The translations under genes and the position numbers were made by a program. The notes under the pieces are model-generated. The model searched no databases and was not told the DNA's origin. It worked only from the letters and a program-made list of their open reading frames with translations. From the NCBI RefSeq assembly GCF_000220835.1, contig NZ_GL985606.1:2014330-2078329 (forward strand): a stretch of DNA of 64,000 bases. Reading direction: 5' to 3'. Source of the DNA: Actinomyces sp. oral taxon 448 str. F0400. GTDB lineage: Bacteria > Actinomycetota > Actinomycetes > Actinomycetales > Actinomycetaceae. Positions 36,381-37,976 of this stretch are shown piece by piece (positions within the stretch are counted from its first letter, which is position 1; each line of letters begins with the position of its first letter).

Positions 36381-37976
36381 TCAGTCCAGGTAATCGCGCA
36401 GCACCTGGCTGCGCGAGGGATGACGCAACTTAGACATGGTCTTGGACTCGATCTGGCGAATGCGCTCGCGCGTGACGCCGTAGACTTTACCGATCTCGTC
36501 CAGCGTTTTGGGCTGTCCGTCGGTCAGGCCGAAGCGCATGGAGACCACGCCGGCCTCGCGCTCCGAGAGGGTGTCCAGGACGGCGTGGAGCTGCTCCTGC
36601 AGAAGGGTGAAGCTCACGGCATCGGCAGGGACCACTGCCTCGGAGTCCTCGATGAGGTCGCCGAACTCGCTGTCACCGTCCTCGCCGAGCGGGGTGTGCA
36701 GGGAGATCGGCTCGCGGCCGTACTTCTGGACCTCCACAACCTTCTCCGGGGTCATGTCCAACTCGACGGCCAGTTCCTCGGGGGTGGGCTCGCGGCCCAG
36801 ATCCTGAAGCATCTGACGCTGGACGCGGGCCAGCTTGTTGATGACTTCGACCATGTGGACGGGGATGCGGATGGTGCGAGCCTGATCCGCCATGGCACGG
36901 GTGATGGCCTGGCGGATCCACCAGGTGGCGTAGGTGGAGAACTTGTAGCCCTTGGTGTAGTCGAACTTCTCGACCGCGCGGATCAGCCCGAGGTTGCCCT
37001 CCTGGATGAGATCCAGGAAGAGCATGCCGCGGCCGGTGTAGCGCTTGGCCAGGGAGACCACCAGACGCAGATTCGCCTCCAGGAGGTGGTTCTTGGCGCG
37101 CTGGCCGTCCTGAGCAACCCAGTGCAGCTCACGACGGTACTTCGCCTCCAGGTTATTTCCCTCGGTGGCGAGCAGGTGCTCGGCGTACAGGCCCGCCTCG
37201 ATGCGTTTGGCGAGCTCGACCTCCTGAGCGGCGTTGAGGAGGGCGACTTTCCCGATCTGCTTGAGATAGTCCTTGACGGGGTCGGCGGTGGCGCCGGCGG
37301 TGACGACCTTCTGCGCCGGCTCATCGGCCTCATCGGAATCCGAAACGGTGAAAGAGCCGTCCTTGTTCCTCTCCCGCGACTTGCGCCCCGATCTCTTGGC
37401 CGCGGCCTTCTCCGCCTGCTCGCGGCGGATGCGGTCGAGCTCCCCGGTCAGGGCGGCGATCGACGGGCTCATCTTGATGCCCTTGATGACCCAACCGCGG
37501 AAGATGAAGCCATTGCTCGTCAGGAACTCGCGGGCGACGACGGGGTCCTCCTCCTCGGGGATCACGAAGCGGGGCACTGGTCCATGGCCGTAGGGGGCCA
37601 GCGTAATGGGTTCTTCGAGCGTGCCGTCGCCCGTGAGCTCGAGCCCTTCGACGGTGGTGCGGCTGCGCACGTACAGGGTCGCCCCGGGGGCGAGCCTGAC
37701 CCCTTTGAGAGCGGCCGGCGTGTTGAAGGGCTTGCGCTTGGAGCCGTCGCCGTTGGCCTCCAGGCTCACGTCCAGGTAGTAGTCCCGTAGCTCGGGAACG
37801 GGCTCCTCGCTCTCCTCCTGCTCGCTCTGGGCGGCTTCGGCGTTCTCACCGTCCGGATCGGCGGGGGCGGAGTCACCGGAGTCACCGGATTCGTCGAGGA
37901 CGACCTCGTCCTCGAGAGCCTTGTCGACGTCATCAGCGCGCTGAGTGCGTTTCCGCGTAGCTGTGGAAGAAGCCAC
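36381..37976 (-). CDS. sigA: primary RNA polymerase sigma factor SigA with a beta-helix-like N-terminal segment
   Basis: A 531-residue group 1 sigma-70 factor. Region 1.2 ([28 protein letters not shown], from residue 232), region 2 ([44 protein letters not shown]), region 3, and region 4 ([19 protein letters not shown]...[15 protein letters not shown]) are complete and canonical, so it recognises ordinary -10/-35 promoters. Residues 1-60 are acidic and disordered. Residues 65-168 are unexpected: [20 protein letters not shown], then [28 protein letters not shown] and [13 protein letters not shown], the layout of the N-terminal rungs of secreted parallel beta-helix proteins. A helical charged linker (175-230) joins it to region 1.2. 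GTG start at 37976 behind GAAAGGA. One uninterrupted frame. Confidence 0.95.
37473..37784 (-). other. beta-helix-like domain inside SigA (residues 65-168)
   Basis: This coding segment reads like the entry repeat of right-handed beta-helix polysaccharide-binding or lyase proteins: an initial YY-strand, an N-G-D-G-S turn, K-P-F, L-A-P-G-x-T-L-Y-V-R, T-x-E-x-P-I-T-L-x-x-Y-G and a later [11 protein letters not shown] rung. Homology is inferred by eye; no such domain is standard in primary sigma factors. Confidence 0.6.

Follow-up and report, generated by a model that had tools for sequence, protein, structure and literature searches.

A module homologous to secreted beta-helix proteins in the N-terminus of the primary sigma factor of Actinomyces

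The primary sigma factor SigA encoded in the window (the whole 64,000-nucleotide stretch of Actinomyces sp. oral taxon 448 str. F0400 DNA analyzed here) bears, between an acidic N-terminal tail and sigma region 1.2, a module that by sequence comparison is homologous to the N-terminal coils of secreted right-handed beta-helix proteins, with a likeness above that expected by chance. We consider it nearly certain from these comparisons that this homologous module is closest to those of GH29-type proteins, is present throughout the genus, evolves under purifying selection, and, on the simplest reading, was gained once.

The window's SigA (Table 1) has complete regions 1.2, 2, 3, and 4 (residues 232-519, with Pfam matches to all four), just as the first-pass annotation had stated, and shows no Pfam match N-terminal of residue 232. 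The best NCBIfam equivalog (PRK05901.1-3) scores above its cut-off with an aligned part that starts only at residue 187. Since this protein is the single match to Sigma70_r3 in the genome at E <= 0.001, it is the housekeeping sigma. The peculiar segment had been delimited as residues 65-168 of the 531-aa frame (37473-37784, minus strand); these coordinates are correct and the position is right, with the true limits slightly wider at residues 64-169. It indeed lies in one open frame with normal codon use: GC3 is 0.90 in the module and 0.88 in regions 1.2-4, and the module frame runs without a stop in all 49 of the 49 genus genomes. The segment taken alone has no Pfam or NCBIfam match, and with only ~106 residues and no Pfam Beta_helix or PL match it does not constitute a complete beta-helix enzyme. 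Identity with sigma region 1.1, a possibility raised at the outset, finds no counterpart in the window's protein, in which PF03979 is absent at E up to 10, with the HMMER filters dropping most matches above ~0.1. The tail in front of the module holds 20 D+E against 5 K+R, and the tails of 23 other Actinomyces SigA proteins (with starts set by pattern) hold 29-59 D+E and 1-6 K+R. Two further open frames lie on the plus strand around this gene: one of 456 codons (36420-37790), which runs opposite the greater part of sigA, module included, is probably a by-product of the high GC content; another of 681 aa (39374-41419), ~1.4 kb from sigA, reads as a Ser/Thr kinase-like protein with four PASTA-type repeats.

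Table 1. Layout of the sigA gene in the window (positions are those of the window).
Feature	Position	Strand	Remarks
sigA, primary (group 1) sigma-70 factor	36381..37976	minus	531 aa, GTG start at 37976
acidic variable N-terminal tail	37788..37976	minus	residues 1-63
beta-helix-type module (putatively captured)	37470..37787	minus	residues 64-169, ~106 residues
conserved segment [19 protein letters not shown] plus basic linker	37377..37469	minus	residues 170-200
linker ending in ..[14 protein letters not shown] stretch, of a type shared with other genera	37284..37376	minus	residues 201-231
sigma regions 1.2, 2, 3, 4	36381..37283	minus	Pfam
in-frame ATG (M169) at the module end, AAGGG at 37480-37484, 7 bases between	37470..37472	minus	weak candidate internal start

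The likeness of the segment to the first rungs of a secreted right-handed beta-helix, originally noticed by eye, is borne out by searches against PDB chains and by direct comparison of profiles. A single-sequence search of the PDB recovers 7v6m at the top (E 0.0016); an asparagine-tRNA ligase fragment comes second at 0.033, and behind it stand the lacto-N-biosidase 6kqs at 0.078 and the PL6 lyase 7dmk at 0.21. The profile search against beta-helix proteins that the first-pass annotation had suggested as a check, run with a profile of 29 Actinomyces SigA rows only, places 7v6m (1e-4), 6kqs (1.4e-4), and the PL6 lyase 7dmk (0.0043) on top, with two unrelated names following at 0.056 and 0.059. 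Upon adding the secreted relatives, the matched chains are 7v6m (3.9e-16), 6kqs (4.1e-13), 5gqc, and 7dmk; lower in this list come other lacto-N-biosidases, alginate lyases, and one rhamnogalacturonan lyase, with unrelated names from E 0.2. The deposited name of 7v6m is that of a fibronectin type III domain-containing protein; we take it to be a GH136 lacto-N-biosidase. For the PDB match at chain residues 255-326, we infer that it is the start of the beta-helix. In a profile-profile comparison, the SigA modules align across their whole length with 12 secreted modules (probability 99.4, score 118.9), against a maximum score of 19.0 in 60 column shuffles and 9.1 for the reversed alignment. Across 394 genomes of the class, the SigA-only profile finds the window's SigA and three other proteins (1.7e-11, 3.2e-9, and 2.2e-5), none of them a sigma factor and all of the beta-helix type with signal-like starts, as judged by reading, not by Pfam. 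A Cys pair seen in three beta-helix rows compared, and missing from five SigA and nine GH29-type rows, was considered as a marker and given no weight, because several other beta-helix proteins also lack it.

The first-pass label "pectate-lyase-like" thus holds as regards beta-helix homology and fails as regards the closest relatives: in the module tree, the nearest kin of the SigA module are free-standing modules in GH29-fucosidase-like proteins, not pectate lyases. All 12 SigA rows among its 47 modules cluster together (100/100), and a 99/100 branch parts the SigA and GH29-type rows from the beta-helix proteins; one row labelled "other" (L167) groups with the GH29 rows. The tree rests on 111 columns with a midpoint root and contains two long-branched GH29 rows, such that the SigA rows might lie either inside or beside the GH29 rows; identical rows are omitted, as is L157, which duplicates the window's own locus. 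The best non-SigA relative (L063; 42% identity over 101 residues) comprises, per Pfam, an Alpha_L_fucos domain followed by the module (residues 793-905), and then F5_F8_type_C and cell-wall binding domains, while a further relative (L066) is a Pfam Beta_helix protein; for L063, the GH29 label is based on Pfam, and for all others on a sequence motif. Searching 213 genomes of the family yielded matches in SigA for the 49 genus genomes (75-100% identity) and weaker ones in 25 others. One locus each was taken for 19 of these 25, along with a second match of one genus genome. Of the 19 non-genus loci, eleven hold long frames of 574-1482 aa and seven hold short ones, and the last (L082) shows no clear match; in the remaining six genomes, the position of the match on the contigs differs from that of SigA. 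Eight of the eleven long frames were read, of which seven have signal-like starts and the eighth (L065) starts outside its locus. A GH29-type protein carrying the module (L073) persists in one Actinomyces genome (G043). The short frames, from seven family genomes (24-43% identity, E 1.45e-5 to 0.005), were set aside; they share a motif among themselves and are probably out-of-frame readings of some conserved gene. Scanning viral_contigs with A1 and three single modules recovered no relative with any of the four queries.

Comparing SigA across the Actinomycetaceae, another check suggested earlier, shows the insertion to be genus-wide: the module is present in SigA of 49 of 49 Actinomyces genomes and absent from 29 SigA genes of 27 other genera of the family (the N-termini of two, L136 and L146, being cut by contig ends), so that the segment is not universal in actinobacterial SigA. 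It is likewise absent from five SigA genes of other families. The expectation of a charged extension at this place in relatives also stands, in that, as judged by eye, low-complexity extensions occur in 25 of the 29, for the most part acidic and rich in Lys/Ala/Thr. In the two drafts G029 and G038, SigA is in two pieces: in the former (G029:C6:18735-20296; an 82% complete assembly) it runs over two overlapping frames, pointing to a sequencing error or frameshift, and in the latter it is split across two contigs. Among 396 genomes of the order, 45 have matches; loci read from 30 of these gave SigA in six cases, each from the genus, and proteins other than sigma factors in 24. The named records matched by the module belong to Actinomyces in 28 of 28 loci, the closest being A. 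israelii, A. gerencseriae, and A. massiliensis (92-93%). The simplest account is that the module was captured once, before the genus diversified, and has been kept since. As it is widespread in secreted proteins and confined to one genus in SigA, we infer that the transfer proceeded from a secreted enzyme into SigA. Dating by a tree of the SigA core was abandoned, as good support is confined to 5 of its 44 inner branches and six rows of other genera, grouped on a long branch, were placed inside Actinomyces.

The region ahead of region 1.2 is occupied differently in other primary sigmas. In SigA of genus g42 (L132; G150:C46:6300-8770), a module that is Ig-like by reading, with no Pfam match, takes the place of the low-complexity extension in one genome. 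A protein of that genome with a signal-like start (L184) contains three tandem repeats to which the module is 45-53% identical, which would make it a second, apparently independent secreted-type module in this slot; the repeat protein ends in a stretch that reads as VanY-like. Two further SigA N-termini have domains over the Pfam cut-off ahead of an acidic stretch, viz., SAP and Rho_N in one (L139) and Rho_N in the other (L144), and yet another SigA (L137) has a stretch without a family name in the same place. Four SigA proteins from other families of the order (L148-L151) possess region-1.1-like stretches by reading; the two tested against PF03979 fall below the cut-off (E 0.1 and 0.0044), and none was noted on reading the 29 SigA genes of Actinomycetaceae. 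Given these varied modules, each seen in one or two genomes per genus, the slot seems to accept different ones.

Selection on the module is intermediate between that on its flanks. Over 24 Actinomyces sequences, pN/pS is 0.65 in the tail, 0.28 in the module, and 0.066 in regions 1.2-4, with mean pairwise identities of 50%, 83%, and 97%, respectively; these are 24 of 29 sequences, with L086-L090 left out for want of a full frame by pattern. The value of 0.28 indicates purifying selection, at about a quarter of the strength seen in the sigma core. Across 29 Actinomyces rows, 59 of the 106 module positions are invariant, with a bias among the charged residues toward basic ones (9 of 13 K/R versus 3 of 14 D/E; Fisher p 0.02). 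The residues L72, A96, L126, H131, V134, R136, F137, P145, R149, F159, I164, K165, I167, and M169 are invariant in SigA and present in none of the nine GH29-type modules, as would be expected if the SigA copy had gained a new interface. K168, also among the invariant basic residues, is found in one of the nine. Because R104, specific to SigA, is a K in all nine, and R64, K80, K91, and R160 each occur in two to four of them, the basic face is only partly new.

Homology makes it likely, in our view, that the module adopts a small, capped beta-solenoid fold inside the cytoplasm. The claim leans on homology because both AlphaFold models are of low confidence and speak neither for nor against the fold: mean pLDDT is 47.4 for residues 55-205 (29 rows) and 42.6 for residues 62-171 (24 rows), and both alignments are confined to Actinomyces and of poor depth, since the rows are 71-92% identical to the window's sequence. 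The order of elements in the low-confidence 55-205 model (strand, short helix, strands, helix, strands, long helix) is compatible with a capped solenoid, and residues 170-200 form a helix in it.

On account of its place, size, and charge, we tentatively favor the module acting as a gate or clamp in the manner of sigma region 1.1. A compact module tethered ahead of region 1.2, alongside the acidic tail, might be placed in or beside the RNA polymerase cleft by its mostly basic invariant charges together with that tail, where it could tune DNA binding by free sigma, open-complex formation, or sigma release. The whole chain, from capture through fold to such a mechanism, is plausible without reaching the point of being probable. 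The sharing of the slot with the region-1.1-like stretches of other families would speak for this gate, and the fact that other genera appear to manage with low-complexity extensions, along with the weaker selection relative to the core, would speak against it. As regards what is known of this part of the protein, a M. tuberculosis study describes SigA lacking its first 179 residues as failing to initiate, with shorter truncations still initiating and those up to residue 132 tolerated, so that distal N-terminal parts can be dispensable; it also describes regulation of SigA through phosphorylation of its N-terminal region (PMC10011835). Further, removal of sigma region 1.1 leaves sigma on the elongating polymerase, according to a passage reporting another paper (PMC12781872). 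The idea that the module replaces RbpA or CarD was rejected: all 21 genus genomes searched have an RbpA match, and CarD_TRCF_RID matches twice in each of 21, so no partner is absent for which the module would be an obvious substitute.

Close behind the gate in likelihood, and itself no better than possible, is a docking site, in which the surface invariant in SigA would bind a regulator, an RNA polymerase subunit, or a small ligand outside the cleft, rendering housekeeping transcription responsive to the bound partner. The 14 SigA-invariant residues absent from the GH29-type modules are seemingly more than the fold alone needs, and the kin of the module occur in carbohydrate-active enzymes; against this, no partner was found and no ligand site identified. 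It is less probable that the module is a stable, functionally near-neutral insertion serving as a spacer in a tolerant slot, retained because misfolding or loss of a folded piece would harm an essential protein. Such a spacer would accommodate both a pN/pS well above that of the sigma core and the presence of different modules, or none, in other genera; however, the invariance of more than half of its positions, charged residues among them, over 29 rows and the lack of any loss in 49 genomes sit poorly with it. A far bolder version, which we hold to be quite improbable, would have the N-terminal slot of actinobacterial primary sigmas as a swap-in site for secreted-protein modules, with the Actinomyces module still binding a saccharide or sugar nucleotide; were this true, the housekeeping holoenzyme itself would sense a ligand. 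Very unlikely, too, is an internal start at M169, with the module upstream of it, that would yield long and short SigA forms in a regulated balance. This reading could draw on the invariance of M169 and the preceding KGIK and on the arrangement of AAGGG, 7 bases, and ATG, shared by 45 of the 46 rows compared (these hold 45 distinct sequences, as that of the window was entered twice), but AAG and GGC are ordinary codons here and the conservation of the two follows from the invariance of the encoded amino acids. Coincidence or convergence as the source of the beta-helix likeness, to which the low-confidence models and the lack of a family match for the segment alone might lend themselves, can practically be dismissed in view of the profile-profile score far above every shuffle and an alignment covering the entire module.

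Primary sigma factors that bear an additional domain are already known; in the parts of a cyanobacterial survey consulted, accessory domains occur at the ends of some sigma factors, with no beta-helix among them (PMC11119718). A literature search, by title or start of abstract, found no description of a sigma factor such as this one, and as far as that search reaches, the beta-helix-type domain, its origin, and its genus-wide presence appear to be new. Primary sigma factors are essential and slow-changing, and a module apparently captured from a secreted carbohydrate enzyme and kept under selection throughout a genus indicates that their N-terminal slot is open to rebuilding; it is unusual for a core protein of gene reading to acquire a foreign part. 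The module is a probably folded natural counterpart to the disordered extension in actinobacterial initiation, and the role of that extension can therefore be tested via natural variants (beta-helix type, Ig-like, SAP/Rho_N, region-1.1-like, and none).

Among known systems, sigma-70 region 1.1 occupies the same place as the Actinomyces module, before region 1.2 of a primary sigma, but has no match in the window's protein. The mycobacterial SigA extension likewise belongs to an actinobacterial primary sigma with an acidic stretch; in M. tuberculosis it is disordered, per the study cited above (PMC10011835), whereas Actinomyces SigA has a conserved module added. The GH136 lacto-N-biosidases and PL6 alginate lyases are right-handed beta-helix enzymes whose N-terminal coils match the SigA module profile, yet they go on into many coils with an active site (15 coils in LnbX, in a work that treats 6KFN, LnbX of GH136, and PL6; PMC6796002), of which the SigA module corresponds to the first part only. 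The GH29-associated module of ~105 aa, found mostly in Actinomycetaceae, aligns over its full length with that of SigA; its copies belong to large proteins that also contain glycosidase domains and whose starts, in those read that far, are signal-like, in contrast to the SigA copy, which is part of a cytoplasmic transcription factor and has its own set of invariant residues.
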